In this document: positions 27,233 through 56,051 of the stretch, piece after piece
Numbering within the stretch: the first letter of the stretch is position 1
Layout: every line of letters begins with the position of its first letter
Position numbers and translations under genes: made by a program
Assembly (NCBI GenBank): GCA_027621295.1
Contig: JAQCBR010000002.1
Location: forward strand, 1 to 64,000
Length of the DNA stretch: 64,000 nucleotides
Direction of reading: 5' to 3'
Source of the DNA: Planctomycetota bacterium
GTDB taxonomy: Bacteria > Planctomycetota > UBA1135 > UBA2386
Notes under the pieces: generated by a model
Databases searched by the model: none
What the model was told of the DNA's origin: nothing
Seen by the model: the letters and a program-made list of their open reading frames with translations, nothing else

Positions 27233-30200
27233 ATGCGCGCGATCCTCCCTGCTCTCGTCGCGACCCTGCTCTCGATCCAGTCGGCTCCCGGGCAGCGCGA
27301 GTCGAACGCGGCTCCCCGCCCGAACGTCGTGTTGGTGCTCGTCGACGACATGGGGTTCTCGGACATCGGTTGCTACGGCAGCGAGATCGAGACGCCGAAC
27401 CTCGATGCGCTCGCGGCGGGCGGCGTGCGGTTCTCTCAGTTCCGCAACACGTCCCGCTGCTGTCCGACGCGGGCGATGCTGATGACGGGGCTGCACCCCC
27501 ACCAGGCGGGCATCGGGCACATGACGCTCGGGCCGAACCAACAGCCGGACCCGAAGCGCCCGCCCGCCTACCAGGGCTACCTCAACGAGCACTGCGTGAC
27601 GATCGCGGACGTCCTCGGGTCGGCGGGATACGCGACGTTCATGACCGGCAAGTGGCACCTCGGTCGCCACGACGAGAGCCTCTGGCCGCTGCAGCAGGGC
27701 TTCGACCGGTTCTGGGGGTCGATCTCGGGAGCGTTCAACTACTTCCTGCCGAAGCACCCGCGCGGCATCCACGCCGACAACACGCCGATCGAACGGCCGG
27801 AATCGACGACCGATCGCCGCTTCTACACGACCGACGCGTTCACCGACCATGCGATGCGCTTCGTCGGGGATCACCTCGACGGCGCAGCCCAGGCGGACCC
27901 CTTCTTCCTCTACCTCGCCTACAACGCGCCGCACTGGCCGATGCAGGCGCACGACGAGGACATCGCGAAGTACCGCGGGCGCTACAAGATCGGCTGGGAC
28001 GAGCGGCGGAAGCGTCGGCACCAGAAGCAGGTCGAACTCGGGCTGATCGACCCGGACTGGCCGCTGTCGCCGCGCGACCCGTCGGCGCCCGCCTGGGACA
28101 CGCTGGATGAGCAGAAGCAGGACGAGATGGACCTGCGGATGGCGATCTACGCGGCGATGGTCGATCGCATCGACCAGAACATGGGGCGACTCGTCGCCTT
28201 CCTGAAGGAGCGTGGGGTCTTCGAGGACACGCTGATCCTGTTCCTCTCGGACAACGGCGGCTGCGCCGAGGGCGGTGTCCTCGGCAACCAGGACATCTAC
28301 GACGTCGAGGCCCGCAACGCCGCCTACGACATCGCGTACGGCCTCGCGTGGGCGAACGCGTCGAACACGCCGTTCTCGCTCTACAAGCACTGGTCCCACG
28401 AGGGGGGCGTCGCAACGCCCTTCTTCGCCCACTGGCCGAAGGGCATCGAGGCGCGCGGCGCCTGGTGCGACGAGCCGGGCCAGCTGCTCGACGTGATGCC
28501 GACCCTGGTGGAGCTCTCGGGCGCCGAGTATCCGACGGAGTTCGAGGGTCAGCCGATCCACCCGCTCGTCGGCGTGTCGCTGACGCCGGCGCTCGCGGGT
28601 CGGGAGATCCAGCGGACGCGTCCGATGTTCAACGAGCACGAGAGCAACGGCTCGATGCAGGAGGGCCGGTACAAGCTCGTCGGTCGGCGCGTCGCCCAGC
28701 AGGACGGCTACCACCCCGAGAACTGGGAGCTCTACGACCTCGAAGCGGACCGGACCGAGCAGCGGAACCTCGCGGCCGAGATGCCGGAGCGGGTCGAGGA
28801 CATGTCCAGGCGCTACGAGCGTTGGGCGCACGACGTCGGCGTGTTCCCGAAGCGGAAGCCCAAGAAGGACGCGCCCAACGTGCTGGTGATCCTCGCGGAT
28901 GACCTCGGGTTCTCGGACCTGGGCGCCTACGGCGGCGAGATCCCGACCCCGAATCTGGATCGGATCGCGGCGGAGGGAGTGCGGTTCTCGCAGTTCACGA
29001 ACTCCGCGCGCTGCTGCCCGTCGCGCGCTTCGCTGCTGACCGGGCTCCATCCCCACGAGACCGGCGTCGGCTCGTTCGCGACCGCGCGGCCGCGCGAAGG
29101 CGGCGGCCCGGCCTACACCGGCCACCTGTCGTCGGACTGCGTGACCTTGGCCGAGGCCCTCGGGAGCGCGGGCTACTCGACATGGATGGTCGGCAAGTGG
29201 CACCTCGGCGTGCCGGGGCCGATCGACCGTGGCTTCCAGAACTACTACGGCTACCGGAACTTCCTCGCCCACTCGGAGAACCAGTGGGATCCGAGCCACT
29301 ACGTGCGGCTCCCCGAGGGGCGTACGGAGGAGATCCCGGCGGGCGAGGGCTTCTACGTGACCGACCAGTTCACCGCGTACGCGCGGGAGTTCCTGCGGCA
29401 GGCGCGCGGGCAGGATCGGCCCTGGTTCCTCTACCTCGCGCACTCGTCGCCGCACTTCCCGATCCAGGCGCCGAAGGAGTCGATCGAACGGCACCTCGAC
29501 ACCTACCGCCGCGGTTGGGACGAGCTCAGAGCCGAGCGCCTCGCGCGGATGAAGGAGCTCGGGCTGATCGATCCGACCCTCCCCCTGCCGCCGCGGAGCA
29601 TGGTGCCCGTCGATCGCGAGGACATCGCCAACGGACATCCGGGCGTGCCCAACCCCGCGTGGGCGGACCTCGAGCCGGCGCGTCGCGAGGATCTTGCGCG
29701 GCGGATGGCGACGTTCGCGGCCATGGTCGAGCACGTCGACCGGGGCGTTGGGCTGATCCTCGACGACCTCCGGGACAGCGGCGAACTCGACAACACGCTC
29801 GTGCTGTTCCTGTCCGACAACGGCGCCTGCTACGAGTGGGGCCCGTTCGGCTTCGACGGGCCGTCGCGTCGGGGTTTGACGACGCTGCACGAGGGCGAGG
29901 AGCTCGAGCGCATCGGCCAGGACGGCACCCACCAGAGCTACGGCTCCGGCTGGGCGATGCTCGGCAACACCCCGCTGAACCTCTACAAGCACTTCGCGCA
30001 CGAGGGAGGCATCAGCAGTCCTCTGCTCGCGCGCTGGCCCGCGGGCCTGGCCGCGCGGTCGGACTTCGTGACGACGCCCGCCCACATCATGGACGTCGCG
30101 CCGACCGTCCTCGAGGCCGCGGGCGTCGCGTACCCGAGCGCGCTCCGGGGCACCGCGACCAAGCCCCTCTCGGGGATCTCGCTCCTGCCCGCGATGCGCG

Positions 30201-30877
30201 GCGAGCCGACGGCCGAGCGTTCGATCGCCTACGAACACCAGCTGGCTCGCGGGCTGCGCCGCGGCCGCTGGAAGATCGTCTGGGGCAAGCGCATGCCGAA
30301 GGAGCCCGCTTGGGAGCTCTACGACCTGGAGAACGACCGCGCCGAGCAGCAAGACCTGGCCGCCGAACGACCGGGGCTCGTCGAGGAGTTGGTGCGCGAG
30401 TGGGAGGCCTGGGCGAAGCGCGTCGGCGCGGACCCGTTCCCGCTGCCGGACGCGCCCGCGGACCCGTCCCTCCGGATCGACGGCGTCGAGATCATCGTGC
30501 GCGCCGAGGTCGAGATCGGGGCCGGCACGCAGGGCGTGGTGATCGCCCAGGGTGGACGGGTGCACGGCTTCAGCCTGCACGTCGACCGGGGCACGCCGGT
30601 CTTCGAGGTCCGCCGCGACGGCGTCGTGCAGACGGTCCGCGCTCCGGGCCCGATTCGCGGGGTGCACCAGCTGCGCGGCCGACTGACCAGGGCCTCCCTG
30701 GACCTGTCGGTCGACGGCAAGGTCGTGTCCGCGGTCCCGTCGCCCGGGCTGCTCCCGGGCCAGCCCACCGATGCGCGCGAAGTGGGAGTCGACTCGCAGA
30801 CCGCGGCGGGGAGCTACGAGTCACCGAACCGGTTCGGCGATGGCCGCATCCTGTCGACGAACGTCAGGACGCGCTGA
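27233..30877 (+). CDS. Tandem double-sulfatase with C-terminal LamG-like domain
   Basis: The 1214-residue exported protein has a signal peptide (MRAILPALVATLLSIQSAPG). Sulfatase domain 1 spans about 29-545 with NVVLVLVDDMGFSDIGCYGS, the formylglycine motif CCPTR at 76-80, FMTGKWHLGRHDES and LFLSDNGGCAEGG. Domain 2 spans about 547-1070 with NVLVILADDLGFSDLGAYGG, CCPSR at 594-598, MVGKWHLG and LFLSDNGACYEWG. Both active sites look complete, so both may be matured. From about 1080 a beta-rich domain (LRIDGVEIIVRAEVEIG, GRLTRASLDLSVDGKVVSAV) resembles a concanavalin/LamG jelly roll and may bind the substrate. Each half is closest in style to planctomycete arylsulfatase A-like enzymes. No stop or frameshift lies between the halves, and the linker (KRKPKKDAPNV) is short. 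Confidence 0.93.
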   Translation: MRAILPALVATLLSIQSAPGQRESNAAPRPNVVLVLVDDMGFSDIGCYGSEIETPNLDALAAGGVRFSQFRNTSRCCPTRAMLMTGLHPHQAGIGHMTLGPNQQPDPKRPPAYQGYLNEHCVTIADVLGSAGYATFMTGKWHLGRHDESLWPLQQGFDRFWGSISGAFNYFLPKHPRGIHADNTPIERPESTTDRRFYTTDAFTDHAMRFVGDHLDGAAQADPFFLYLAYNAPHWPMQAHDEDIAKYRGRYKIGWDERRKRRHQKQVELGLIDPDWPLSPRDPSAPAWDTLDEQKQDEMDLRMAIYAAMVDRIDQNMGRLVAFLKERGVFEDTLILFLSDNGGCAEGGVLGNQDIYDVEARNAAYDIAYGLAWANASNTPFSLYKHWSHEGGVATPFFAHWPKGIEARGAWCDEPGQLLDVMPTLVELSGAEYPTEFEGQPIHPLVGVSLTPALAGREIQRTRPMFNEHESNGSMQEGRYKLVGRRVAQQDGYHPENWELYDLEADRTEQRNLAAEMPERVEDMSRRYERWAHDVGVFPKRKPKKDAPNVLVILADDLGFSDLGAYGGEIPTPNLDRIAAEGVRFSQFTNSARCCPSRASLLTGLHPHETGVGSFATARPREGGGPAYTGHLSSDCVTLAEALGSAGYSTWMVGKWHLGVPGPIDRGFQNYYGYRNFLAHSENQWDPSHYVRLPEGRTEEIPAGEGFYVTDQFTAYAREFLRQARGQDRPWFLYLAHSSPHFPIQAPKESIERHLDTYRRGWDELRAERLARMKELGLIDPTLPLPPRSMVPVDREDIANGHPGVPNPAWADLEPARREDLARRMATFAAMVEHVDRGVGLILDDLRDSGELDNTLVLFLSDNGACYEWGPFGFDGPSRRGLTTLHEGEELERIGQDGTHQSYGSGWAMLGNTPLNLYKHFAHEGGISSPLLARWPAGLAARSDFVTTPAHIMDVAPTVLEAAGVAYPSALRGTATKPLSGISLLPAMRGEPTAERSIAYEHQLARGLRRGRWKIVWGKRMPKEPAWELYDLENDRAEQQDLAAERPGLVEELVREWEAWAKRVGADPFPLPDAPADPSLRIDGVEIIVRAEVEIGAGTQGVVIAQGGRVHGFSLHVDRGTPVFEVRRDGVVQTVRAPGPIRGVHQLRGRLTRASLDLSVDGKVVSAVPSPGLLPGQPTDAREVGVDSQTAAGSYESPNRFGDGRILSTNVRTR

Positions 30878-31003: not shown

Positions 31004-32650
31004 TCAGCCCTGCAGGCGTGTCGTGAGCGTCGACACCAGCTCGCGGAACATCTTGTCGTCCTTCACGCGCTTCTCGATCTTCTTGACCGCGTAGAGGACC
31101 GTCGTGTGGTCGCGACCGCCGAAGTAGCGGCCGACTTCCTCGAGCGACTGGTCCGTCAGCTGGCGGCACAGATACATCGAGATCTGCCGCGGGAGGCTGA
31201 TCGCCTGGGTCCGCGACTTGCCGATCATGTCGCGGGCGGAGATCGAGAACTCCTCGGTGACGAGCCCCATGATCTCGGAGACCGAGACCTGGCGGCTGCG
31301 CTGGACGACGACGCCGCGGAGCGCTTCCTCGGCGAGCTCGACGCTCACTTCGCGGTCGGTGATCGACGCGACGCCGATGACCTTGACGACGGCTCCCTCG
31401 AGTTCACGGATGTTGGTGTCGATCCGCTCGGCGATGAAGTAGGCGACGTCCTCGGGCAGGTCGAGCTGCCGCAGGCGGGCCTTGCGTCGGACGATCGCGA
31501 CGCGCGTCTCGAAGCACGGGACCTCCATCTCGGCGACGAGACCCCAGCGGAACCGCGACACGAGGCGCTCCTCGATCGTCGGGATCTCCGTCGGCGAACG
31601 GTCGGACGAGATGATGATCTGCCGGTTCGTGTTGTAGAGCGCGTTGAACGTGTGGAAGAACTCGTCCTGCGTCTTGTCCTTGTTGGCCAGGAACTGGATG
31701 TCGTCCACGACGAGCACGTCGACGCTGCGGTGCAGCTCGCGGAACTCGTCGAGGCGGCCGGACTGGATCGCGTGGATGAACCGGTTGGTGAACTCCTCGC
31801 AGCTCAGGTAGAGCACGCGGGCGCGTTCGTTCTTCCGCCGGATCTCGTGGCAGATCGCCTGCAGCAGGTGCGTCTTGCCGAGGCCGACGTTGCCGTGGAT
31901 GAACAGCGGGTTGTAGGCGCGGCCCGGGTTCTCGGCGACGGCCAGCGCGGCGGCGTGCGACAGTCGGTTGCACGGGCCGACGACGAACTGGTCGAACGTG
32001 TAGCTGCGGTTGAGGTCGCCGAGGTCGGACAGACGATCCCAGTTGGAGCCGCTGTAGCGGCCTTCGCCGGCTGGGGGCGCTCCGTGCTGCAGGGGCCCGC
32101 GCTCGGTTCCCGGGCGCGGGATGCGCTGGAAACCGATCTCGGGGCCACGGTCCGCGGGCGCTGCCTGTGCCGACGGGGCTGCACTGCCCTGTGGCCGCGC
32201 CGTGCGCGCGCCCAGGTCGATCGAGTCAGGGTCGATCGAGTCAGGGTCGACGGCGTCCGGTTCGACGGCATCGATGACGGCATTCCTCAGCCCGGCTTGG
32301 CTGGTGACGCCTCGCTCTGCGAACTCGATTCCGGCGGCTGCTTCCGCCGTCAGGCCGAGCTCTTCGCCCTCCGCCCCGCGCGCCAGCTGCAGGGCGACCC
32401 CGCAGCGTCGACGACCCGTCGCGAGGCGCACTGCGTCCTCGATCATCGACAGGTAGTTCTTGCGCAGCCAGTCACGGACGAAGCCGCTCGGCACCCCGAA
32501 CACGTAGCGGTCGCCCTGGACCGCCCGAAGCGTCAGGCCGCGGAACCACGTTTCGTAGTGCTCCTTGCGGACCGAGTGCTTCAGCTCGCCGAGGACCTTC
32601 TCCAGAAGGCCTGCGGGCAGGGTCTCGTTCGAGTCGACTGGGCGCGTCAC
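31004..32650 (-). CDS. dnaA: Chromosomal replication initiator DnaA
   Basis: DnaA binds origin boxes and melts oriC. The 548-residue version starts at GTG 32650 (VTRPVDSNETLP); a TTG at 32674 would add eight residues. Domain I (about 8-85) holds LEKVLGELKHSVRKEHYETWF. A long, poorly conserved linker (about 95-215) is acidic and then Ala/Pro-rich. The AAA+ core has Walker A GNVGLGKTH at about 253-261, Walker B DVLVVDDIQFL and the arginine-finger region EERLVSRFRWGL. Domain IV ends with the box-recognition signature GGRDHTTVLYA. The gene lies at the edge of the candidate origin. dnaN, recF and gyrB are not adjacent. Confidence 0.97.
   Translation of the reverse strand: MTRPVDSNETLPAGLLEKVLGELKHSVRKEHYETWFRGLTLRAVQGDRYVFGVPSGFVRDWLRKNYLSMIEDAVRLATGRRRCGVALQLARGAEGEELGLTAEAAAGIEFAERGVTSQAGLRNAVIDAVEPDAVDPDSIDPDSIDLGARTARPQGSAAPSAQAAPADRGPEIGFQRIPRPGTERGPLQHGAPPAGEGRYSGSNWDRLSDLGDLNRSYTFDQFVVGPCNRLSHAAALAVAENPGRAYNPLFIHGNVGLGKTHLLQAICHEIRRKNERARVLYLSCEEFTNRFIHAIQSGRLDEFRELHRSVDVLVVDDIQFLANKDKTQDEFFHTFNALYNTNRQIIISSDRSPTEIPTIEERLVSRFRWGLVAEMEVPCFETRVAIVRRKARLRQLDLPEDVAYFIAERIDTNIRELEGAVVKVIGVASITDREVSVELAEEALRGVVVQRSRQVSVSEIMGLVTEEFSISARDMIGKSRTQAISLPRQISMYLCRQLTDQSLEEVGRYFGGRDHTTVLYAVKKIEKRVKDDKMFRELVSTLTTRLQG
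32215..32250. repeat. 15-base in-frame repeat in dnaA linker
   Basis: GGTCGATCGAGTCAG occurs twice in tandem (32215-32229 and 32230-32244) with the start of a third copy. In the protein it encodes repeated DPDSI units in the disordered linker of DnaA. It keeps the reading frame and is probably a neutral length-variable tract. Confidence 0.7.
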
Positions 32651-32953
32651 GCGAACCTGGGGGCAAGAAGACAAAGGGCACCCCAGGCTTCCGATTACGG
32701 CGAAACCGAATGCCCAGGACAGGAAAGGTTGGTCGGGAGGGCCGGTTCTCCACCGCGGTCCGGCTCACCGCAGCGACTCAGCGCCTCTCGACGGCCCGTT
32801 CTTAGCGACTTCCCACGGGCCATGCAAAGACCACGACAGGGAGAACGTGCGGCGAACCGGGGGTATCCATCCTAAGTCCTTTTCTCACATAGGTTCGATG
32901 CGATGGAGTTTTCCACGGTCCTGGACCGGACGGTGTGGAACGTTGAACCGTAA
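32651..32953. other. Candidate chromosomal origin (oriC)
   Basis: The 300-base gap upstream of dnaA holds several DnaA-box-like sites related to TTNTCCACA: TTCTCCACC at 32746-32754, TTTTCCAC at 32909-32916, and GTGTGGAAC (reverse of GTTCCACAC) at 32933-32941. TTTCCACC at 32976-32983 lies just inside the next gene. A locally AT-richer patch, unusual here, lies at about 32866-32912 and includes GGTATCCATCC, TTTTCTCACATAGG and the box. Position beside dnaA, box clustering and the AT-rich patch are the usual signs of a bacterial origin. The dnaA promoter should also be here. Confidence 0.6.
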
Positions 32954-34084
32954 TCAGGCTCTCCCCGGACCCGACTTTCCACCGCCCGCGGTGGAGCGGA
33001 GGCGGGACACGACGGCGGCCACCGCGCGGGCAGCTCGCCGGGCAGAATCGGTGTTGGTCCGAGGGCTGGTCGCAAAGCGAACGCACTGGCGGGCAGCATC
33101 CGGGTCGAATCCCATGGCCCGGAGCACGGCAGGTGGCTCGGGGCTACCCGACGAGCAGGCAGAACCCTGGGACGCGCGCACGCCCGCGAGGTCCAGGGCG
33201 GGCAGCAGAGCCCGCCCGTCGACGTCGGCGAAATGGATCGTCACCGTGTTCGGCAGTGCGTGCGGTGGGGTCACGCGGGTGCAGCGCACCAGTCCCAGGA
33301 GTTCCTCCTCGAAGGCCTGCCGAGCGGCCTCCATCCCGCGCGCCCGCTCGTCCGCCTCCTGGAGCGCCAGCTCGAACGCGAGCGCGGTCGCGGCGGCGAG
33401 CGATGTGCTGACGGTGCCCGGCCTGAGACCGGATTCCTGACCACCGCCGACCAGCAGCGGGCGGGGCGGGGTTCCCCGGACGATCCAGAGGCTCGCGCCG
33501 CGGAGGCCGCCGAACTTGTGGCTGGAGACGCTGACCGAATCGGCGACGGGCAGGACCTCGTCGAGCGGCACGCGCCCGACGGTCTGCGCGGCGTCGACGT
33601 GCAGGGGGACCCCGGCTTCCCGGGCGCATGCCGCGGCGGCAGCGATGGGCTGCAGCGTGCCGATCTCGCCCTGCGCGTGGGTCAGGCAGACGAGGCCGAT
33701 CGGCACCCCGGGTGAGCGGACGATGGCCGTGCCCATCGCGTCGACGTCCCACATGGACGTCCCTCGGCGCGCAGCCGGCTCGGCGACCGACTTGTGTTCG
33801 ACGGGAGCGAGCAGCACCGGGAGCCCGGGATCGCCGAGACCGGCGATGGCGATGTTGTTCGCCTCGCTGCAGGACGCGACGAAGACCACCTCGTCCGGGG
33901 CGACCCCAGCAGCGTCCGCTGCCGCTGCGCGCGCCTCCTCGAGCACCGCGCGCGCACGCCGTCCGCCCGCGTGCGGACTGCCCGGGTTGTGCGGGCACGC
34001 GGCCTCGACCTCGAGGAATCGCTCGAGCACGCGAGGGTCGACCGGCGTCGTCGCGTTGTGGTCGAGGTCGAACGGGCCTTCCAT
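32954..34084 (-). CDS. Cysteine desulfurase family (NifS/IscS-like) protein
   Basis: The 376-residue PLP enzyme starts at the ATG at 34084. Family features are LDHNATTPVDPRVLERF at the N-terminus, PVEHKSVAEPA with the cofactor-stacking His region, HVDAAQTVGRVPLD with the PLP Asp, and SVSSHKFGG with the Schiff-base Lys near residue 190. The catalytic cysteine loop is QGSACSSGSPEPP near 306. Its short SACSSG loop matches group I enzymes. It would transfer cysteine sulfur for Fe-S clusters or thiolation. It follows bshA with a six-base gap on the same strand, so it is probably co-transcribed with the bacillithiol genes. No iscU-like scaffold is next to it. Confidence 0.9.
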   Translation of the reverse strand: MEGPFDLDHNATTPVDPRVLERFLEVEAACPHNPGSPHAGGRRARAVLEEARAAAADAAGVAPDEVVFVASCSEANNIAIAGLGDPGLPVLLAPVEHKSVAEPAARRGTSMWDVDAMGTAIVRSPGVPIGLVCLTHAQGEIGTLQPIAAAAACAREAGVPLHVDAAQTVGRVPLDEVLPVADSVSVSSHKFGGLRGASLWIVRGTPPRPLLVGGGQESGLRPGTVSTSLAAATALAFELALQEADERARGMEAARQAFEEELLGLVRCTRVTPPHALPNTVTIHFADVDGRALLPALDLAGVRASQGSACSSGSPEPPAVLRAMGFDPDAARQCVRFATSPRTNTDSARRAARAVAAVVSRLRSTAGGGKSGPGRA

Positions 34085-34090: not shown

Positions 34091-35218
34091 TCAGTCGGTC
34101 GCTTCGAGCACGCGCCGGTACAGCGCCTCGTAGCGCCCCAGCACCTTCCCCTGCGCGAACTCGGAGACAGCACGCTCCCGGACTGCCTCCGACTGGACGC
34201 GATGGAGGTCGGCGTCCTCGAGGAGTTCGAGCGCGGCGGCTGCCATCGCATCGACGTCGCCGAACGGCACGAGCCGCCCCGTGTCTCCGAACACCTCGCT
34301 GACGCCCCCGACGTCGGTGCTGACGCAGGGCACGCCGCAGCTCATCGCCTCGAGCATCGACAGTCCGAAGCTCTCGGTCTCCGATGCAGAGAGGAACAGA
34401 TCGGCGTCGGCGAACGCCCGTGCCAGCTCCGTCTCCTCGCGGACGCCGGCAGCCTCGACCCGGTCGAGGACACCGAGGTCCGCGGCGACCGCCAGCGCGT
34501 GCTCGCGGTCCGGTCCGTCCCCGAGCAGGGTCAGGCGTGCGGGCACCCTCGCCGCGATCTGTGCGAACGCCCGCACGACGTCGGCCGCGCGCTTCACGGG
34601 GCGCAGGTTGCTCGCGTGGACGATGCGCCGCTCGCGGCTCGGCCGGGCCCAGAACCGCCCCTCTTGGCCGGGCTGGAAGCGCTCGGTGTCGACGAAGTTG
34701 GGGATCACGTCGATCTCGGCCGCGCAGCCGAACGTCCGGCGGGTCTCTTCCGCCAGGAAGCTGCTGACCGCAGTCACCGCGTGGGAGCGTTCGATCGCGA
34801 ACCTGGTCGGCCGCGTGTAGGCCCGATCGGCGCCGACGACGGTGATGTCCGTACCGTGCAGCGTCGTGATCCACCGCAGCGGCCGATTGCCCATCGCATC
34901 CGCCAGGAACGCGCTGATCGCGTGCGGGATCGCGTAGTGGACGTGGAACAGATCGACGCCGGCCTCTTCCTGGACCTCCAGCATCCGCGTGGCGAGCGCG
35001 AGGTCGTAGGGCGGGTAGCGGAACAGCGGGTAGGCCGAGACCTGGACCCCGTGGTAGTGCACTCCGGGCACGGAATGCTTGAGGCGCGCGGGGCGGTCGT
35101 AGCTCAGCAGGTGGACCTCGTGGCCCGCCCGCGCCAGCTGGATGGCGATCTCGGTGGCGACGACGCCGCTGCCGCCAACGGTCGGGTAGCAGACGATGCC
35201 GATCCGGAGCGGGTCCAT
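34091..35218 (-). CDS. bshA: N-acetylglucosaminyl L-malate synthase BshA
   Basis: This 375-residue GT4 enzyme joins UDP-GlcNAc to L-malate, the first step of bacillithiol synthesis. The N-terminus IGIVCYPTVGGSGVVATEIA is the hallmark BshA signature. FHVHYAIPHAISAFLA, TTLHGTDITVVG and NFVDTERF follow in family order. The C-domain has VHASNLRPVKRAADVVRAF, LTLLGDGPDRE and the catalytic SETESFGLSMLEAMSCGVPCVSTDVGGVSEV block. The start at the ATG at 35218 (MDPLRIGIV) fits family length. Identification is reinforced by bshB1 and bshC upstream on the same strand. Confidence 0.95.
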   Translation of the reverse strand: MDPLRIGIVCYPTVGGSGVVATEIAIQLARAGHEVHLLSYDRPARLKHSVPGVHYHGVQVSAYPLFRYPPYDLALATRMLEVQEEAGVDLFHVHYAIPHAISAFLADAMGNRPLRWITTLHGTDITVVGADRAYTRPTRFAIERSHAVTAVSSFLAEETRRTFGCAAEIDVIPNFVDTERFQPGQEGRFWARPSRERRIVHASNLRPVKRAADVVRAFAQIAARVPARLTLLGDGPDREHALAVAADLGVLDRVEAAGVREETELARAFADADLFLSASETESFGLSMLEAMSCGVPCVSTDVGGVSEVFGDTGRLVPFGDVDAMAAAALELLEDADLHRVQSEAVRERAVSEFAQGKVLGRYEALYRRVLEATD

Positions 35219-35253
35219 GGGAGCCGCATCCTACTGCGCTCGGCCCGCGGTGC

Positions 35254-35889
35254 TCAGGCTCGTGCGGCGACGGCCGGCAGGTCGAGCCGCATCGTCACCG
35301 TGCCGTCGCTGGCCGCCGGCATCAGCTCGAAGTGTGCGCCCAGGTCCGACGCGAAGTCGTCGAGGCACTCGGCCCGGAACAGGAACTCGGCGTGGGCGCG
35401 GTGGGCCGCCGACGATGGGAACGCCGGCACGATGCCGATCTCGACGACTGCGCGCTCGTCGCTCTCGCGGGTCGAACGCACGCGGACCATGTCGCCGATC
35501 GTCGCGAAGCGTGCGACGAGTCCGAGCAGGCGCTGGAGCAGGGACTCGAACGGCTCGGCGTCACCCGGCGTGACCTGGATGCCGCGGTCCCAGCTGCACT
35601 GCAGGACGAGCGGCTTCTCGCCCTCGACGAGCGCGCGGTCGAGCGCTCTCGACGCGAGCTGCCGCAGATCCACGCCCGCCTCCTCGGCCGACGTTTCGGT
35701 CACGCGTTCGACGTCCGAGGCCACGCGTCCCGCCAGCGACTCGAGCTGCATCAGCGCGTCGTCCTCGCCGTAGACATCGGCCTCGAGTGCGCGTGCGACC
35801 GCGGACTCGACGGCCCGGAGGTCGCGGATCAGGTCCCGCTCGGCCTCGTGGCGATCCGGTCGGAAACCGTTCTGGTCGTGCCGTTCCAC
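35254..35889 (-). CDS. Degenerate histidine-kinase-like protein, unknown function
   Basis: The 211-residue product starts at a GTG at 35889 and lies between parA and bshA on the same strand. No clear family was recognised. The first 110 residues are a charged helical hairpin (YGEDDALMQLESLAGRVASD). The second part, from LLQRLLGLVARFATIGDMVRVRST to FASDLGAHFELMPAASDGTVTMRLDLP, follows the strand-helix order of a GHKL/HATPase domain. The N-box Asn and the DxGxG loop are missing, so it would not bind ATP normally. No phosphorylatable His motif is clear. It may be a scaffolding relative of histidine kinases or phosphotransferases (inference). Confidence 0.65.
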   Translation of the reverse strand: MERHDQNGFRPDRHEAERDLIRDLRAVESAVARALEADVYGEDDALMQLESLAGRVASDVERVTETSAEEAGVDLRQLASRALDRALVEGEKPLVLQCSWDRGIQVTPGDAEPFESLLQRLLGLVARFATIGDMVRVRSTRESDERAVVEIGIVPAFPSSAAHRAHAEFLFRAECLDDFASDLGAHFELMPAASDGTVTMRLDLPAVAARA

Positions 35890-35937
35890 ACCGGGTGGAT
35901 CGGCTGGCGCTCGCGAAACCCCCGAATCCGGGCCGGC

Positions 35938-36861
35938 TCAGGCGGTCCCGTCGGGGGACGGCTGGCCCTCTTCCGCCGTGGCGACCGGGGGATTCGGATC
36001 GGGTGCGGCTTCTTGCCCGGCCCCGACCTCGGTCTCGGCCTCCGCTTCGACTTCGTAGCCCGCCGCGGCGTAGAGCTCGGCGTCGGAGATCGTCTCGCCG
36101 TGCCGCTCCAGGAACTCCCGCGCGAACTCCCAGTAGTCCTCGGCGCCGTTCGAATCGGGAGCGTGTTCGAAGATCGTCAGCCCGAAGCTCGGCGCCTCGG
36201 CCAGCTTGACGTTGTTGCGGATCAGGTTCCGGGCGAGGCGATCGCCGAAGTAGGCGCTGATGTTCTCCAGCACCTCGGTCGTCAGTCGGGTCCGGAGGTC
36301 GACCATGCACGGCAGTACACAGAGGACGTCGAGCGACGGGTTGAGGCGGCGCTTCACGAGGTCGATCACCTCGGTCAGCTTGGCCATGCCCTGCAGCGAG
36401 AAGTACTCGGTCTGCATCGGGATCAGCACCTCGTTCGCCGCGACGAGTGCGTTCGCGGACAGCACTCCGAGGGACGGCGGGCAGTCGACGAGCACGTAGT
36501 CGAACTTCACGTCGCCGTCGTAGGCGTCGAAGGCCTCGCGGAGGATGGTCTCGCGTCCGATGCGGTTGGCGAGCACCTGCTCGACGCCGCCGAGCGTCGA
36601 GTCGGTCGGCACGACGAAGAGTCCCTCGGTCCGCGTCGCCAGCACCAGATCGCGCAGCGGACGGTCCTCGACGAGGAGCTGGGTCAGGGTCGCGCTCTCC
36701 AGTTCGGGGCGCTGGTCGACGTGCAGCGTCAGGTTGGACTGCGGGTCGAGGTCGAGGAGCAGGACCTTCCGGCCCAGGCGGGCGAGCGCGGCTCCGACGT
36801 TGACGGTGGTCGTCGTCTTGCCGACTCCGCCCTTCTGGTTGATGACGGCGACGATCTTCAT
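35938..36861 (-). CDS. parA: ParA/Soj family partition ATPase
   Basis: The 307-residue protein starts at the ATG at 36861, which shares one base with the bshB1 stop (TGATG), so translation is probably coupled. The deviant Walker A is NQKGGVGKTTTTVN at about residues 8-21, Walker A' lies in LLLDLDPQSNLTLHV, and Walker B is DYVLVDCPPSLGVLSANAL, all intact. The membrane/DNA-dimer part IPMQTEYFSLQGMAKL is typical of chromosomal Soj. After about residue 255 an acidic tail (EVEAEAETEVGAGQE) replaces the usual end. No parB follows; the next gene is the degenerate kinase-like gene. The location 3 kb from the candidate origin fits chromosome segregation. Confidence 0.92.
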   Translation of the reverse strand: MKIVAVINQKGGVGKTTTTVNVGAALARLGRKVLLLDLDPQSNLTLHVDQRPELESATLTQLLVEDRPLRDLVLATRTEGLFVVPTDSTLGGVEQVLANRIGRETILREAFDAYDGDVKFDYVLVDCPPSLGVLSANALVAANEVLIPMQTEYFSLQGMAKLTEVIDLVKRRLNPSLDVLCVLPCMVDLRTRLTTEVLENISAYFGDRLARNLIRNNVKLAEAPSFGLTIFEHAPDSNGAEDYWEFAREFLERHGETISDAELYAAAGYEVEAEAETEVGAGQEAAPDPNPPVATAEEGQPSPDGTA

Positions 36862-37604
36862 CACGGGATCAGGAACGCGAGTTCGTCGAGGGATGCGGGG
36901 CCGTCGAGTGCGAAGGGTTCGGCGGCGGCGACCCCGCTCTGCATGCCGAACCAGCGGTCGCGCGCCTCGACGCGCTCGATCGGGTCGAGGGCACGGACGA
37001 AGTGTGTCCGCTCCTCCCCGGGTCCCGGAATCTGGGACGCGAAGCACGCGATGACGCTGCGCTTGCGCTCCCGCACCGCGGTGATGTCGACGCAGAACCC
37101 GGCGGGCACCGCGTCGTTGCCCAGGAAACGCGCGACGAGACGCGGCCGGTGGGGCGCGAGGCCGTGCTCCGCGTCGAAGCGGGTGAGCCCCGACAAGAAG
37201 AAGGCCCTGGTCACCAGATCGGCGACCGCGACGTGGTCGGGATGGACGTCGGGCTTCGCGTGTGTCAGCAGGACGCGGGGACGGAAGCGTCTCAGGGCCC
37301 GGACGACCGCGCGGACCGCGTCCTCGGTGACAGCGACCCCCGTGTCCGGAAGCCCGAGGTTCTCGCGTGCGCAGAGGCCCAGGAGGGACGTCGCCCGAGC
37401 CGCCTCGTCGGCGCGGTTCTCGGGCGTTCCCCGTGATCCGGCTTCACCGCGCGTCGCGTCGACCACGGCGACGCGTCGGCCAGCGTCCGTCTGGCGGAGC
37501 ATCGTCCCCCCGCAGCCGAGTTCGGCGTCGTCCGGATGTGCTGCGAGGACGAGGACGTCGACCGGCTGGCCGTCGTGGGCCGGGAACGTCGACCCGCTGG
37601 TCAC
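36861..37604 (-). CDS. bshB1: N-acetylglucosaminyl-malate deacetylase BshB1
   Basis: This 247-residue LmbE/PIG-L family zinc deacetylase removes acetate from GlcNAc-malate. The start is a GTG at 37604 whose GTGA overlaps the bshC stop. Zinc-site motif AAHPDDAELGCGGT (His and two Asp) lies near residue 20, and HPDHVAVADLV supplies the later His. The conserved PENRADEAARAT, LGLPDTGVAV and RVLLTHAKPDVHPDH blocks fit the BshB1 branch. It sits between bshC and parA, coupled to both by overlapping codons. Confidence 0.93.
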   Translation of the reverse strand: MTSGSTFPAHDGQPVDVLVLAAHPDDAELGCGGTMLRQTDAGRRVAVVDATRGEAGSRGTPENRADEAARATSLLGLCARENLGLPDTGVAVTEDAVRAVVRALRRFRPRVLLTHAKPDVHPDHVAVADLVTRAFFLSGLTRFDAEHGLAPHRPRLVARFLGNDAVPAGFCVDITAVRERKRSVIACFASQIPGPGEERTHFVRALDPIERVEARDRWFGMQSGVAAAEPFALDGPASLDELAFLIP

Positions 37605-39157
37605 AGCTGCAGGACCCCGTGGTCGATCTGGAACGGATCGGCGGCGGCGATCAGCCTCTCGATCGCCGCGGGGCCGTGTGCGACCAGCGAGGGAACGATG
37701 GTCAGCACGCGCTCCTGCATCCTTCCACGGGGCCGCAGGTGGGCGCACAGGCGCCTGATCTGACGGAGGCCGGTGCCCTGTCGGTTCTGCCGCGAGTTGC
37801 GGACGCGCACCATCAGCTTGTCGAGCTCGTCCGTGACCTTCCCGCGCGTCCGTTCGAGCTGCCCGACCATCTGTGGGTCGGATTCACGCAGCAGGTCGCT
37901 GACCGTGGCGAGCCGTTGCCGGACGTCCGAGATCGCGTCCTCGAGCGCCAACTCTGCCGGGCCCTGCCCGTCTTCGGGCAGCACGCGGGCGAGCACTTCG
38001 GGGCCCTCGACGAGGTCGGGCAGGTCCCAGCCGAAGCGGTCGAGGTGCTTGACCATCGACGCTTCGACGAGCGTCAGGCTCGCACGGGGCACGAATGCTG
38101 GCCGTGGCACGCCGAGCGCCTTGTAGAGCGGAGCGATGATCGCCAGGTAGGAGAGTTCTCCGGGCCCGACGACGAAGCCGAGGCTCGGGAGCACCGCGTC
38201 CTGCCAGAGCGGGCGCAGGAGGACGCCGGGGCTCAGCGTTTCCGGCCCCTCGAACTCCTCGCCGTCGGCGAGCGCCTGACGACGCCCGTTCGCGTGCAGC
38301 GCGAACATCAGCGTCGTGCCCGGATCGAGCGTCACGTCGAAGCCGAGATCCGACAGGTGCTCCGAAGCGATGCGGATCCGGTCGCGGATCTCGTCGGCCC
38401 GTGTGAACCAGCCCGGAAGAGGGTCGAACGCCGAGCGGGGCAGGTCGCGCGGTTCGATGACGAGAAGGCCGTCGTCCGCGAAGAGACGGAACAAGAGCCG
38501 TGCCATCTGGTCGCCCAGCGTCTCGTCGTCCGAGCGCTTCTCGAACAGCGCGAGCATCTCGTCGCGGAACTCCGTCTGCGGCAGCAGATCGGACACTGCG
38601 GCCATCGCGTGCTCGATCTTGGCGCCGATCGGGATGTGCCGGACCGCGCGTCCGTTGTGCTCGACGTCCACCCGGACCCTCTGCAGGTCCATGTTCGGGT
38701 TCACGAAGAACGCGCGGTTGACCTCGTCGAGGTCGTGGTCGTCCGAGTGGTTCCAGAACACCGGGACCACGCGCGGCGCTCCGGGGCGCGCCGACAGCTC
38801 GCGTGCGAGCCGGACCGCCGTGGCGACCTTGAACACCGTGTAGAGCGGTCCCCCGAACAGCCCCGGCTGCTGGCCGGTGACGACCACCTGGGCCTCTCCG
38901 GCGCCGATGGCCCGCGCCGCGTCGATCGACTTCTCCGACGCGCCGTGCCGCGCGGCGTACGCCTCGAGCGCGGCGCCCAGCTCGGCGGGCGGGACCAGCC
39001 GCTCGGCGCCGATCGGGGCCAGCTTCAGCAGGTGGTCGGCATCCTTGGGTCGTGGGCCGAGGAGGCTGCGCAGGTCGGGGTCGTCCTCCAAGTAGCGGAG
39101 GTGGACCTCGGAAGTGCCGATCCGACGGAAGGAAATGTGACGGAGGCTCTGGTTCAC
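37601..39157 (-). CDS. bshC: Bacillithiol synthase BshC (cysteine-adding enzyme)
   Basis: The 518-residue protein adds L-cysteine to GlcN-malate to finish bacillithiol. The GTG at 39157 is chosen because GGAGAG sits a few bases upstream and family homology begins at about residue 10. Signature blocks are VVTGQQPGLFGGPLYTVFK near 90, PVFWNHSDDHDLDEVN (the family W-x-x-S-D-D/E-D-H-D-like motif), GFVVGPGELSYLA and FVPRASLTLVE, with a coiled-coil C-terminal arm (MVGQLERTRGKVTDELDKL). The longer upstream frame is Arg/Gly-rich and overlaps pyrF territory. It is the first gene of the bsh run, 74 bases after pyrF. Confidence 0.94.
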   Translation of the reverse strand: MNQSLRHISFRRIGTSEVHLRYLEDDPDLRSLLGPRPKDADHLLKLAPIGAERLVPPAELGAALEAYAARHGASEKSIDAARAIGAGEAQVVVTGQQPGLFGGPLYTVFKVATAVRLARELSARPGAPRVVPVFWNHSDDHDLDEVNRAFFVNPNMDLQRVRVDVEHNGRAVRHIPIGAKIEHAMAAVSDLLPQTEFRDEMLALFEKRSDDETLGDQMARLLFRLFADDGLLVIEPRDLPRSAFDPLPGWFTRADEIRDRIRIASEHLSDLGFDVTLDPGTTLMFALHANGRRQALADGEEFEGPETLSPGVLLRPLWQDAVLPSLGFVVGPGELSYLAIIAPLYKALGVPRPAFVPRASLTLVEASMVKHLDRFGWDLPDLVEGPEVLARVLPEDGQGPAELALEDAISDVRQRLATVSDLLRESDPQMVGQLERTRGKVTDELDKLMVRVRNSRQNRQGTGLRQIRRLCAHLRPRGRMQERVLTIVPSLVAHGPAAIERLIAAADPFQIDHGVLQL

Positions 39158-39231: not shown

Positions 39232-40098
39232 TCAGGAATTCGGGACCGCGACCGCCCTGACCTGGGCCGCGAAGGTGGCGACGGCCTGTTCGACCGCGTC
39301 TCGCCAGTTTGGGTCGCTCGGCAGGAAGCACTCCATCACGCCGCGACTCTGGTTCACGAGACCGCCGAGGCCACGGCCATCGAAGGCCGGGGCCAGGTCC
39401 TCGACGCGTCCGCCCTGGGCGCCGACGCCCGGGATCAGGAGCCACGCGCGTGGCATCGCCGCGCGGAGGCTCGCGAGCTGCGTCGCCTGCGTCGCGCCGA
39501 CGACGGCGCCGACGGACGAGAAGCCGTACTCGTCCGCCATGTCCTCGCCCCATCGGTCCACCGCGCGTGCCACGACCTCGGCGACCGTCTGGCCCTTCTC
39601 GGTGCGGAGATCCTGCAGCGTCGCCGAGCCGGGGTTGCTCGTCCGCACGAGGATGAAGACACCCTTGCCTTCCCGCCGGCAGCGGGCGAGGAACGGCTCG
39701 TTCGAGTCCTTCCCGAGGTAGGGGTGGAGGGTGACGGCGTCGGCCAGGTCGAGGTGGACGCGGGCGTAGGCCTCGGCCGTGCTCCCGATATCGCCCCGCT
39801 TGATGTCCCCCACCACGAGCAGGCCGTGCTCTCGGGCGAGCTTGCAGGTCCTCTCGTAGGCGGCGAACCCGGCCGAGCCGAACGCCTCGAAGAACGCGAT
39901 GTTCGGCTTCACCGCCGGCAGGTGCCGCGCGATGACCGGCAGGACTTCGTGGTAGAACGCGAAGACCCGCTCGGCAGGAGGAGCGCCGGGGGCGACCCGC
40001 TCCGGCAGCGCCGGGAGCCTGGGATCGAGTCCGGCGCAGGCAGGCGCGCCGCCGGCCTCGACGGCGCGGCCCAGGCGTTCAACGAACGGGCTGTCCAT
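39232..40098 (-). CDS. pyrF: Orotidine 5'-phosphate decarboxylase, type 2
   Basis: The 288-residue enzyme makes UMP from OMP. The ATG at 40098 (MDSPFVERLG) is used; one at 40137 is also in frame. The catalytic charged network appears as VVGDIKRGDIGSTAEAYA with the D-x-K-x-x-D pattern. CAGLDPRLPALPE, KPNIAFFEAFG, LHPYLGKDSNEPFL, ILVRTSNPGSA and LLIPGVGAQGG are type-2 hallmarks, and the length fits the longer type-2 group. It lies upstream of bshC on the same strand and may be the first gene of the run toward dnaA. Confidence 0.95.
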   Translation of the reverse strand: MDSPFVERLGRAVEAGGAPACAGLDPRLPALPERVAPGAPPAERVFAFYHEVLPVIARHLPAVKPNIAFFEAFGSAGFAAYERTCKLAREHGLLVVGDIKRGDIGSTAEAYARVHLDLADAVTLHPYLGKDSNEPFLARCRREGKGVFILVRTSNPGSATLQDLRTEKGQTVAEVVARAVDRWGEDMADEYGFSSVGAVVGATQATQLASLRAAMPRAWLLIPGVGAQGGRVEDLAPAFDGRGLGGLVNQSRGVMECFLPSDPNWRDAVEQAVATFAAQVRAVAVPNS

Positions 40099-40266
40099 GG
40101 GGGGGCCGAGGGTAGCCACCGCACGATGCTGCGTCATCAGCGCGGTTCGAGCACCGTCGGCCGTGTTCCGACCGTCTCCGGAAATCCTTGTCCGGTTCCG
40201 GTCGATCGGGTCACCTCAGCAAGTCCCCGACCGCGTCCGCCGCCCTAGCCCGAGAGGTCCGCTCCG

Positions 40267-41394
40267 ATGGCGTTGATCTTCGTCCCGAGAGAAACCGAGC
40301 CCGGGGAGTCCCGGGTCGCCGCCACGCCCGAGACCGTCAAGGGCTACACGAAGCTCGGCCTACAGGTCGCGGTCGAATCCGGCGCCGGTCTGGCGTCTGG
40401 CTTCCGAGATGCCGACTACGAGGCGGCAGGTGCTCGCATCGGCGGCTCGCTCGGTGAGGCCGACCTCGTGCTGATGGTCCGGACGCCACAGCCGGGCGCC
40501 ATCGCCGGCATGAAGCGGGGTGCCGTGCTCGCGTCGGGTCTGGTGCCGAACGGCCAGGCGGAAGCGATCGTTGCGCTGCGTGACGCGGGCGTCACTTCGT
40601 TCGGGATGGAGCTGATCCCCCGCATCACCCGCGCCCAGAAGATGGACGTCCTGTCGAGCCAGGCGACGTGCGCCGGCTACCAGGCCGTGCTGTTGGCCGC
40701 CGCGAGCCTGCCGCGCTTCTTCCCGCTGCTGATGACTGCGGCAGGCACGATCAAGCCGGCCAAGGTCTTCATCCTCGGTGCTGGCGTCGCCGGCCTCCAG
40801 GCGATCTCGACGGCGCGCCGGCTCGGTGCCGTGGTCGAGGCCAACGACGTGCGCCCTGCCGTGAAGGAGCAGGTCGAGAGCCTCGGCGCGAAGTTCGTCG
40901 ACACCGGGACACCGCCGGACGCAGAGACCTCGGGCGGATACGCGAAGGAGGCGACGACCGAGTATCTGGACAAACAGCGTCAGATCCTGACCGAGCACGT
41001 CGCCGAAGCGGACGTGGTCATCACGACGGCGCTGATCCCCGGCCGCCCCGCCCCTCGCATCGTCACCGACGCGATGGTCCAGGGGATGCGGCCCGGCTCG
41101 GTGATCGTCGACCTCGCGGCCCCGAACGGGGGCAACGTCGAGGGCACGGTCCCCGGCGAGGTCGTCGATCGCCACGGCGTGAAGATCCTCGGTGAGACCA
41201 ACCTGCCCGCGCTGTGCGCGGCCGACGCGAGCCGCATGTGGGCGCGCAACGTGCTCGGCTTCGCCGAGCTCCTCGTGAACGAAGGGGCGATCGCCCCGCA
41301 CTGGGACGATGAGATCGTCAAGGCCTGCTGTGTGACCCGCGATGGCGAGGTCGTACACGAAGGCGCCCGCACCGCCGTGGGAGGGGGCAACTGA
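40267..41394 (+). CDS. pntAA: NAD(P) transhydrogenase subunit alpha part 1
   Basis: The 375-residue cytosolic NAD(H)-binding domain I of the proton-translocating transhydrogenase. VPRETEPGESRVAATPETV is the N-terminal signature and RITRAQKMDVLSSQATCAGYQAVL the interdomain motif. ILGAGVAGLQAISTARRLGA is the NAD fingerprint, and NDVRPAVKEQVESLGAKF and the mobile loop follow. The enzyme couples hydride transfer between NADH and NADP to proton entry. It begins a three-gene + strand operon; pntAB starts six bases after its stop. The + strand promoter probably lies in the gap shared with divergent pyrF (40099-40266). Confidence 0.95.
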   Translation: MALIFVPRETEPGESRVAATPETVKGYTKLGLQVAVESGAGLASGFRDADYEAAGARIGGSLGEADLVLMVRTPQPGAIAGMKRGAVLASGLVPNGQAEAIVALRDAGVTSFGMELIPRITRAQKMDVLSSQATCAGYQAVLLAAASLPRFFPLLMTAAGTIKPAKVFILGAGVAGLQAISTARRLGAVVEANDVRPAVKEQVESLGAKFVDTGTPPDAETSGGYAKEATTEYLDKQRQILTEHVAEADVVITTALIPGRPAPRIVTDAMVQGMRPGSVIVDLAAPNGGNVEGTVPGEVVDRHGVKILGETNLPALCAADASRMWARNVLGFAELLVNEGAIAPHWDDEIVKACCVTRDGEVVHEGARTAVGGGN

Positions 41395-41399
41395 TCACC

Positions 41400-41687
41400 A
41401 TGGACGCAGCGACCCTGTTGTTCGTCTTCGTGCTCGCGGCCTTCGTCGGCCTCGAGATCATCACGAAGGTTCCTCCCACCCTGCACACCCCGCTGATGTC
41501 GGGCTCGAACGCGATCTCCGGGATCGCGATCGTCGGCGCGATCCTCGCGTTGCAGGGTGAGTACAGCACCACCGCACAGGTCCTCGGCTTCGTCGCCGTG
41601 ATCTTCGCGATGGTCAATGTCGTCGGCGGCTTCATGGTCACCGACCGGATGCTGTCGATGTTCGGTTCCAAGAAGAAGAAGGTCTGA
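41400..41687 (+). CDS. pntAB: NAD(P) transhydrogenase subunit alpha part 2
   Basis: This 95-residue protein with three to four membrane helices is the first membrane part of domain II. It contains FVLAAFVGLEIITKVPPTLHTPLMSGSN, the conserved motif at the start of the proton channel, then ISGIAIVGAILAL and AMVNVVGGFMVTDRMLSMF. It ends in a Lys cluster. The ATG at 41400 follows the pntAA stop closely, and pntB starts three bases after its own stop. The split-subunit form with three genes is common in bacteria. Confidence 0.93.
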   Translation: MDAATLLFVFVLAAFVGLEIITKVPPTLHTPLMSGSNAISGIAIVGAILALQGEYSTTAQVLGFVAVIFAMVNVVGGFMVTDRMLSMFGSKKKKV

Positions 41688-41690
41688 TCC

Positions 41691-43073
41691 GTGTCGACCT
41701 ACCTCTACATCGCGGCCGCGGTCCTCTTCATCCTCGGCATCAAGCGCCTCGGCAAGGTCAAGACCGCGCGGTCCGGCAACCAGGTCGCCGCGCTCGGCAT
41801 GCTGGTCGCTCTCATCGGCGTGCTGGTCGAAGCGAAGGTCCTCGACTGGACCATGGCGTCGATCGCGCTCGGCATCGGCACGGTGATCGGCGTGCTGCTC
41901 GCGACCCGCGTGCAGATGACGTCGATGCCGGAGCTGGTGGCGGCGTTCAACGGCCTCGGCGGCGCGGCGTCGGCACTGGTCGCCGCAGTCGAGCTCTACG
42001 ACAAGTCGAAGGAGTCGACCCTCGCCAGCCAGGACACGATGGTGGCGACGACCGTCCCGCTGTCGATCCTGATCGGCACGGCCACGCTGTCGGGGAGTGC
42101 GGTCGCCTACTTCAAGCTCGCCGGCAAGCCCTTCCCCCACCCGTTCAAGGGCGCGCTCCGCAACCTCTCGCACGTGGCGCTCGTGCTCGGGATCGTCTAC
42201 GCGAGCTACTGGTCGGCGACGAGCATGGGCGCCGAAGCCGATACGGCGATGATCGTGCTGCTGGTGCTGTCGACGATCGCAGGCGTCTTCCTCGTCACGC
42301 CGATCGGCGGCGCGGACATGCCGGTCGTCGTGGCTCTCCTCAACTCGCTGTCGGGTGTGGCGGCTGCCGCGAGCGGCTTCGTGATCGCGAACCAGATGCT
42401 GATCGTTGCCGGCGCTCTGGTCGGGGCGTCGGGCCTGATCCTGACGCAGATCATGTGCAAGGCGATGAACCGCTCGCTGGGGAACGTGCTGATCGGCGGG
42501 GTCGGCGACGGCGCGGTCGCTGCGGACGCACGCGAGTACCACAACATCAAGAAGACGTCCTCCGAGGAGGTCGCGATGCTGCTGGACGGCGCGACGTCCT
42601 GCGTGATCGTCCCCGGCTACGGGCTCGCGGTCGCGCAGGCCCAGCACACCTGCGCGAACCTCGCGAAGGAGCTCGAGAGCCGCGGCGTCGACGTCCGCTA
42701 CGCGATCCACCCGGTCGCGGGCCGCATGCCGGGCCACATGAACGTGCTGCTCGCCGAGGCCGACGTCCCCTACGACAAGCTCTGGGAGATGGAGCGGATC
42801 AACTCGGAGTTCGAGAACACCGACGTGGTCGTCATCGTTGGCGCGAACGACGTCGTGAACCCGCTCGCGCGCGAGAAGACCGGCAGCCCGATCGACGGGA
42901 TGCCGATCCTCGACGTCGACAAGGCGCGCACCGTCGTGATGATCAAGCGCTCGCTGAGCCCCGGCTACGCGGGCTGCCGCAACCCGCTCTTCGACCATGA
43001 GAACACGCTGATGGTGTTCGAAGACGCGAAGGCGGCGCTGCAGGGCATGCTCGACGAACTGAAGGAGATGTGA
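41691..43073 (+). CDS. pntB: NAD(P) transhydrogenase subunit beta
   Basis: The 460-residue subunit starts at a GTG at 41691. The first 270 residues are membrane helices of domain II, with MPELVAAFNGLGGAASALVA and GADMPVVVALLNSLSGVAAAASGF as channel signatures. The NADP-binding domain III is the C-terminal 190 residues: PGYGLAVAQAQH, HPVAGRMPGHMNVLLAEADVPYD, NTDVVVIVGANDVVNP and VIKRSLSPGYAGCRNPLF. All family blocks are present, so the enzyme should be functional and supply NADPH. Confidence 0.95.
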   Translation: MSTYLYIAAAVLFILGIKRLGKVKTARSGNQVAALGMLVALIGVLVEAKVLDWTMASIALGIGTVIGVLLATRVQMTSMPELVAAFNGLGGAASALVAAVELYDKSKESTLASQDTMVATTVPLSILIGTATLSGSAVAYFKLAGKPFPHPFKGALRNLSHVALVLGIVYASYWSATSMGAEADTAMIVLLVLSTIAGVFLVTPIGGADMPVVVALLNSLSGVAAAASGFVIANQMLIVAGALVGASGLILTQIMCKAMNRSLGNVLIGGVGDGAVAADAREYHNIKKTSSEEVAMLLDGATSCVIVPGYGLAVAQAQHTCANLAKELESRGVDVRYAIHPVAGRMPGHMNVLLAEADVPYDKLWEMERINSEFENTDVVVIVGANDVVNPLAREKTGSPIDGMPILDVDKARTVVMIKRSLSPGYAGCRNPLFDHENTLMVFEDAKAALQGMLDELKEM

Positions 43074-50162: not shown

Positions 50163-51800
50163 TCAGTGCTTGGCGCCGTGGCCGTAGTCGTAGAGCTCCC
50201 CGGTCACGACCGGCTCTTCGTCGAAGTTGTAGAGGTTCGGCGGAGTCGGCGACTCCCAGTCCATCGTGACGCCGCCCCACTCGTTGGCGGCGGCCTTGCG
50301 GCCTGCGAACAGCGAGTGGATCAGGTAGCCGAGCATCAGCGCGAAGCCGATGCCGAGGATCACGGCGCCGACCGTCGACCACTGGTGGTAGATCTGCCAC
50401 TCAGGGATGTAGGTGGCGTAGCGACGCGGCATGCCCTGGCTTCCCATCGCGAACTGCGGGAGGAAGGTCACGTTGAAGCCGACGAGGATCAGGATCGCCG
50501 AGATCTTGGCGAGCGTCTCGTTGTACATCCGCCCGAACATCTTCGGCCACCAGTGGTGGACACCGGCGAAGAACGCCAGAGCGGTCGAGCCCATCATCAC
50601 CGCGTGGAAGTGCGCGACGACGAAGTAGGTGTCGTGCAGGTGGATGTCGACCGACAGCGTGCCGAGGAAGACACCGGTCAGGCCGCCGATCGCGAAGATG
50701 ATCAGGAACGCGATCGCGTAGAGCATCGGCGCGGTCAGCGCGACCGAGCCACCCCAGATCGTCGCGACCCAGCTGAACTCCTTGATGGCGGTCGGGATCG
50801 CGACCAGCATCGTCAGGAAGGAGAACGCGAGCATCACGAACTCCGACTCGCCGCTGGTGAACATGTGGTGTCCCCAGACGAGGAAGCTGATCACCGCGAT
50901 CGAGATCGAGGAGAAGGCGAGCAGCTTGTAGCCGAACAGCGGCTTGCGCGAGTGGACGGTGACCACCTCGCTGATCACACCCATCGCCGGCAGGATCATG
51001 ATGTAGACCGCCGGGTGGGAGTAGAACCAGAAGAAGTGCTGGAAGAGCACCGGGTCACCACCGTGCGCCGGGTCGAAGATCCCGATGTGGTAGAGGTGCT
51101 CGAAGGCCAGCAGCAGGACCGTGATGCCGAGCACCGGCGTCGCGAGGACCTGCAGGACGCTGGTCGCGTAGATCGCCCAGCAGAACAGCGGCAGCTTGAA
51201 CCACGTCTGCCCGCGGGCGCGCATCTTGTGGATCGTCACGATGAAGTTCAGCCCGGTGAAGATCGAGCTGAAGCCCAGCGTGAAGACGGCGAGACCCATC
51301 GACACGACCGCCTGCTGCGTCTGCAGCGAGTAGGGCGTGTAGAACGTCCAGCCCGTGTCGACCGCACCCGACAGGATCGAGTAGATCGCCATGATCGTCC
51401 CGGTGAGCCACAGGTAGAAGCTCGCCAGGTTGAGGCGCGGTAGGGCCACGTCCGGCGCGCCGAGCATCAGCGGCAACACGAAGTTGCCGAGTGACGCCGG
51501 GATCGCCGGGATGATGAAGATGAACACCATGAACACGCCGTGCAGCGTGAACACCTGGTTGTAGACGGCGTTCTCGAAGATCGCGCCGTCCGGCGTCCAG
51601 AGGTGCAGGCGGATCAGCAGGGCCAGGATGCCGCCGCACAGGAAGGCGGCGGTCACACCGACCAGATACATCAGGCCGATGCGCTTGTGGTCGAGCGTGC
51701 CAGCCCAGGACCAGAAGCCCTTGGTGACGTCGAGGTAGCTAGGCTCCTTGCGCGAGCCGGCCTCGGGCGCCTTTTCGATGTCGGGAACGTAGGTCGTCAT
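50163..51800 (-). CDS. ctaD: Cytochrome c oxidase subunit I, A2-type
   Basis: This 545-residue 12-helix catalytic subunit holds heme a, heme a3 and CuB. The low-spin heme and CuB histidines are in family blocks [42 protein letters not shown] and [14 protein letters not shown]. The motif YSHPAVY, with Ala in place of the HPEVY glutamate, is the mark of A2-type oxygen reductases such as the Rhodothermus caa3 enzyme. It reduces oxygen to water and pumps protons. It is encoded in the order ctaC-D-E-F with alternative complex III upstream. Confidence 0.96.
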
Positions 51801-51819
51801 CGGTGCTTGTCCTCGTGTG

Positions 51820-52827: not shown

Positions 52828-52841
52828 CAAGGGGTTGGAGC

Positions 52842-53675: not shown

Positions 53676-53742
53676 GGAGGTGGGGGTTCGAGCCAGTATC
53701 TCTCTTCGATGCGAGAGCGGGGGCTGTTGTCCGGGTCGTGGA

Positions 53743-54054: not shown

Positions 54055-54103
54055 GGTGGGCTGCGTTCGTCCGATGGGGTTGGGTTCGTGCGGCCGACGT
54101 CGA

Positions 54104-56047: not shown

Positions 56048-56051
56048 CGGA

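Follow-up and report, generated by a model that had tools for sequence, protein, structure and literature searches.

A probable bacillithiol biosynthesis operon in an uncultured planctomycete, with the three pathway genes present in about half of the sampled phylum

The window, i.e. the whole stretch of 64,000 nucleotides that was analysed, lies on one contig (C164) of a 4.59 Mb MAG that is 89.7% complete. Its minus strand carries genes assigned to the three enzymes of bacillithiol (BSH) synthesis together with the following neighbours, given in the order in which they are read.

39232-40137, minus strand: pyrF, conserved upstream flank outside the pathway (TIGR02127, 266 bits, cut-off 110.6)
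37601-39157, minus strand: bshC, cysteine-adding enzyme, 518 aa, GTG start (TIGR03998; PF10079 and PF24850; PDB 4wbd)
36861-37604, minus strand: bshB1, GlcNAc-malate deacetylase, GTG start (TIGR04001; alignment with 1uan, 6p2t and 2ixd)
35938-36861, minus strand: orphan ParA-family ATPase (PF13614, E 8.6e-54)
35254-35889, minus strand: 211-aa ORF, probably histidine-kinase-like without a sensor domain (model of the homologue in locus L035)
34091-35218, minus strand: bshA, N-acetylglucosaminyl malate synthase, 375 aa (TIGR03999; PDB 2jjm, 3mbo and 5d00)
32954-34084, minus strand: cysteine desulfurase family protein, conserved neighbour (PF00266, 1e-30)
31004-32674, minus strand: dnaA, conserved flank of the cluster outside the pathway (PF00308, 1.1e-69; PF08299; PF11638)

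The minus-strand order is thus pyrF, bshC, bshB1, parA, the 211-aa ORF, bshA, cysteine desulfurase and dnaA. The stop codon of bshC and the start codon of bshB1 overlap in GTGA, and those of bshB1 and parA in TGATG, and such overlaps suggest a single coupled operon. An earlier note on this DNA had placed the bsh trio on one strand, which is correct, but it overlooked the two genes (parA and the 211-aa ORF) that separate bshB1 from bshA. The end that it gave for the cluster, 39157, is exactly the GTG start of bshC, the cysteine desulfurase that it put directly downstream begins 6 bp past bshA, and the signatures CYPTVGGSGVV in BshA, AAHPDDAELG in BshB1 and VTGQQPGLFGG in BshC all occur at the place and on the strand claimed. 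The arrangement of the bsh genes is far above chance, because the same order recurs in relatives. Scans for Rfam families, tRNAs and consensus promoters and terminators gave no result above expectation. Elsewhere in the window, positions 50163-61858 encode cytochrome c oxidase subunits beside an alternative complex III set (ActD, NrfD-like, Fe-S and multihaem cytochrome proteins), and a 1214-aa ORF at 27233-30877 combines two sulfatase domains in a single protein. An operon for NAD(P) transhydrogenase (alanine dehydrogenase/PNT domains and PNTB) runs divergently from the bsh cluster at 40267-43073; it is also divergent and adjacent in locus L034, and in L035 it is ∼5.6 kb more distant. A role in NADPH supply is possible.

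Each of the three enzymes exceeds the cut-off of its own NCBIfam equivalog model, and none falls into an unrelated family. BshA, a GT4 GlcNAc-malate synthase, scores 442.7 bits against TIGR03999 (cut-off 273.7) and aligns end-to-end with PDB 2jjm (E 6e-99), 3mbo and 5d00. BshB1, a zinc deacetylase, scores 228.4 bits against TIGR04001 (cut-off 182.5) and only 39.5 bits against the BshB2 model, and retains the HPDD and HPDH motifs when aligned to 1uan, 6p2t and 2ixd. BshC reaches 326.1 bits against TIGR03998 (cut-off 265.8) and contains both Pfam BshC domains, PF10079 and PF24850, in line with a cysteine-adding enzyme that has Rossmann-like and coiled-coil domains; it is divergent, being 25–33% identical to other planctomycete families, and a profile built from 13 planctomycete BshC homologues matches the BshC structure 4wbd at E 9.9e-95. 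By the known biochemistry of these families, BshA would join UDP-GlcNAc and malate, BshB1 would remove the acetyl group, and BshC would add cysteine to give BSH, which would then serve as the main low-molecular-weight thiol. BshA, BshB and BshC are shared with the N-methyl-bacillithiol pathway of Chlorobaculum tepidum (BshA-C plus NmbA), in which the bsh genes have widely separated locus numbers, CT0548, CT1419 and CT1558 (PMC6282198). It is conceivable, if unlikely, that the product of the planctomycete cluster is likewise modified to N-methyl-bacillithiol, by an NmbA encoded elsewhere: two published studies describe NmbA alongside BSH genes in many phyla (PMC6282198, PMC12719100), whereas no methyltransferase is seen within the bsh cluster, and the BSH-encoding Deinococcota, Myxococcota and Acidobacteriota are mostly without NmbA.

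That the host is a planctomycete, as the earlier note had supposed, is supported by its relatives in the named collection, taken together with the kinship groups of the genomes. The nearest named BshA (67% identity) belongs to a Planctomycetota MAG, whose locus is also the only one in that collection with the same ParA insertion; pyrF-bshC-bshB1-bshA occurs in four more named Planctomycetota loci, so that pieces of the neighbourhood are found in five in all. In a BshA tree the window groups with its own family (SH-aLRT 99) and with other planctomycetes, and the tree neither shows nor rejects monophyly of the phylum. In the locus of the closest named relative, the kinase-like ORF and bshA are set apart by ∼3.4 kb of additional DNA that is repetitive in part (L053, 1474-4852).

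Among 199 genomes spread over the phylum, BshC was found in 107 and BshA above its cut-off in 103; the two occur together in 101 genomes and one without the other in 8. BshB1 exceeds its cut-off in 122 genomes, and the whole trio is present in 100 of the 199 if BshB1 proteins at or just under the cut-off are counted. The survey of planctomycete genomes that the earlier note had proposed thus finds the trio in roughly one sampled genome in two. BshA occurs in every one of the 23 members of the window's family. In 69 genomes the trio is clustered on the same strand within 9 kb, always in the order bshC-bshB1-bshA, and the median gap between bshB1 and bshA in clustered loci is 75 bp; gaps of >500 bp are confined to the window's own order and contain ParA. 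The flanks are conserved as well, with pyrF in the same position in L034-L042, L044, L051, L052, L054, L055, L057 and L067, cysteine desulfurase in L034-L042 and in the distant families of L051 and L052, and dnaA in many relatives, these two distant families included. BshB1 alone was ruled out as a marker of the pathway, as a PIG-L protein exceeds the BshB1 equivalog cut-off in 22 genomes that have neither BshA nor BshC; the TIGR04001 model over-calls in this phylum. Three families represented by genomes that are 99–100% complete (f6, f28 and f45) lack BshA and BshC. In one further genome, which belongs to the window's order (G155; L040, 13096-14001), the bshC-bshB1-parA-bshA-desulfurase layout is kept with a BshA-like gene that is 36% identical and below the BshA cut-off, a divergence that possibly reflects loss or change of function.

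Of the 109 genomes that have BshA or BshC, 90 also have bacilliredoxin (PF06491), as do 2 of the 90 that have neither; we report the counts and not a p-value, since shared ancestry inflates formal significance. The CGC motif is present in the bacilliredoxin copies checked. In relatives that have it, bacilliredoxin would be expected from the known biochemistry of its family to reverse protein S-bacillithiolation. No PF06491 protein was found in the 89.7%-complete MAG studied here, and one is present in another member of its family (G125). These distributions bear on the alternative that the enzymes are homologues recruited for some other sugar-malate or cell-envelope product, with no BSH being made. 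The PIG-L deacetylases that pass the BshB1 cut-off in 22 genomes without BshA or BshC make BshB1 alone non-diagnostic, and the below-cut-off BshA-like gene in the retained cluster of G155 also speaks for recruitment; however, the specific enzymes BshA and BshC score above equivalog cut-offs and are nearly always found together, and bacilliredoxin tracks both across the phylum, which leaves this alternative very improbable.

The genes inserted between bshB1 and bshA, and the desulfurase beside them, were examined for a connection to the pathway. The only ParB of the genome is encoded 35 kb away on the same contig, next to a second ParA that is ∼35% identical to the cluster ParA, so that a role of the latter as the chromosomal partition ATPase was ruled out, parAB forming a separate pair. 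In a deeper sample of the window's order (81 genomes, 52 with BshA), ParA lies directly upstream of bshA in 42 of the 52. One family (f3) has no BshA and yet keeps a close ParA homologue, and in another (f84) BshA is present and ParA is located elsewhere; the insertion is thus particular to some lineages and the pathway does not require it, and a link of ParA to bacillithiol chemistry was rejected as a likely explanation. The 211-aa ORF has no match in Pfam or NCBIfam and has homologues at the same place, after ParA, in L034, L035 and L053. The structure modelled for the L035 homologue, at a mean pLDDT of 76.9, resembles the cores of histidine kinases, among them ZraS and HK853 (E 2.4e-11 for the best match), which tentatively suggests a histidine-kinase-like protein without a sensor domain; for the copy in the window the assignment is tentative because it is only 21% identical to the modelled homologue. 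The desulfurase is of the NifS/IscS class and below every equivalog cut-off (best NCBIfam match NifS, 217.9 bits, under the cut-off of 530.75). Inspection of its sequence by eye located an SSHK lysine motif and a GSACSSG cysteine motif, which are those expected of an active enzyme, and it may draw on the same supply of cysteine and sulfur as BshC.

It might be argued that BSH synthesis belongs to one functional module with ParA, the kinase-like protein and the desulfurase, which could, for instance, regulate or localise it. The TGATG overlap of bshB1 and parA, the adjacency of ParA and bshA in most BshA-positive genomes of the order, and the desulfurase found alongside in distant families too would all fit such a module. 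Against it, f3 retains ParA in the absence of BshA, ParA is not beside bshA in f84, the gap between bshB1 and bshA is short outside the window's order, and the neighbours dnaA and pyrF are conserved to the same degree, so that position near dnaA may explain the linkage. A module of this kind is accordingly quite unlikely; ParA and the kinase-like gene are lineage-specific passengers and not parts of the pathway.

The same three enzyme families, BshA, BshB1 and BshC, are those of Bacillus subtilis, Bacillus anthracis and their relatives. The loci differ in layout: in this phylum the three genes commonly adjoin one another as bshC-bshB1-bshA, next to dnaA, whereas most of the loci compared from bacilli and paenibacilli have bshB1 directly upstream of bshA and, with the queries used, no bshC was found nearby. 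In Acidobacteriota, Zixiibacteriota, Aminicenantes and Hydrogenedentota the bsh genes are clustered in some loci (L063, L074, L076, L078 and L082), although the genes do not keep to one order (C-A-B in L063 and L074) and the pyrF, dnaA and desulfurase flanks were not found.

We conclude, with a probability of roughly 0.9, that the locus is a standard bacillithiol biosynthesis operon in an uncultured planctomycete. This reading is supported by the identities of the enzymes, the compact same-strand arrangement with overlapping genes, the conservation across the phylum and the co-occurrence with bacilliredoxin. Judged from its genes, the pathway is genuine, conserved and probably functional in this organism.

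The recycling of the oxidised thiol is less readily accounted for. In this genome, with all 28 candidates scored, the best match to YpdA/Bdr reaches 140.8 bits against a cut-off of 339.9. Among the best ten candidates per genome, YpdA/Bdr is above the cut-off in at least 7 of the 199 genomes, all of them positive for BSH genes, and counting matches with E ≤1e-70 gives at least 14 genomes, two of which are without the trio. In one genome (G064) ypdA adjoins bacilliredoxin. A conserved reductase next to bacilliredoxin was considered as a stand-in for YpdA and rejected, as only a ∼90-aa protein recurs in the 20 loci examined. This conserved protein directly adjoins bacilliredoxin in 8 of the 20 planctomycete loci, and one locus (L149, 6497-7204) has it as a fusion with an Fe-S carrier domain (PF01521). 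Glutathione synthetase GshB is above the cut-off in 2 of the 199 genomes, and this genome is not one of them. We tentatively propose, as a possibility that falls short of even odds, that bacillithiol and bacilliredoxin constitute the main thiol redox system in much of the uncultured Planctomycetota, and that the oxidised form is recycled by a reductase other than YpdA/Bdr. If this is true, another bacillithiol disulfide or bacilliredoxin reductase operates in these bacteria; the seeming lack of YpdA/Bdr in most planctomycetes with the synthesis genes and bacilliredoxin points to a particular gap in what is known of bacillithiol redox cycling.

A 2018 survey (Hiras et al., PMC6282198) listed the planctomycetes as a lineage without a documented or predicted low-molecular-weight thiol, a statement with which the occurrence of the trio in about half of the sampled planctomycetes clashes. 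The description of the host in the earlier note as a less studied user of bacillithiol agrees with that survey, but the gene set is not peculiar to this genome. A survey of RefSeq genomes from 43 phyla, published in 2025 (PMC12719100), gives 3842 species with the full pathway, and planctomycetes go unmentioned in its main text; text searches of the literature found no paper reporting bacillithiol in planctomycetes. If f6, f28 and f45, which lack BshA and BshC, are the cultured lineages, their lack of the genes would account for the failure of surveys based on finished or RefSeq genomes to pick up the pathway. The pathway at this locus is an established one and not a new system, but its hosts here belong to a group that is poorly documented, and the host range of bacillithiol is under-reported: the present survey predicts the thiol in about half of the sampled planctomycete species, mostly in lineages represented by MAGs.
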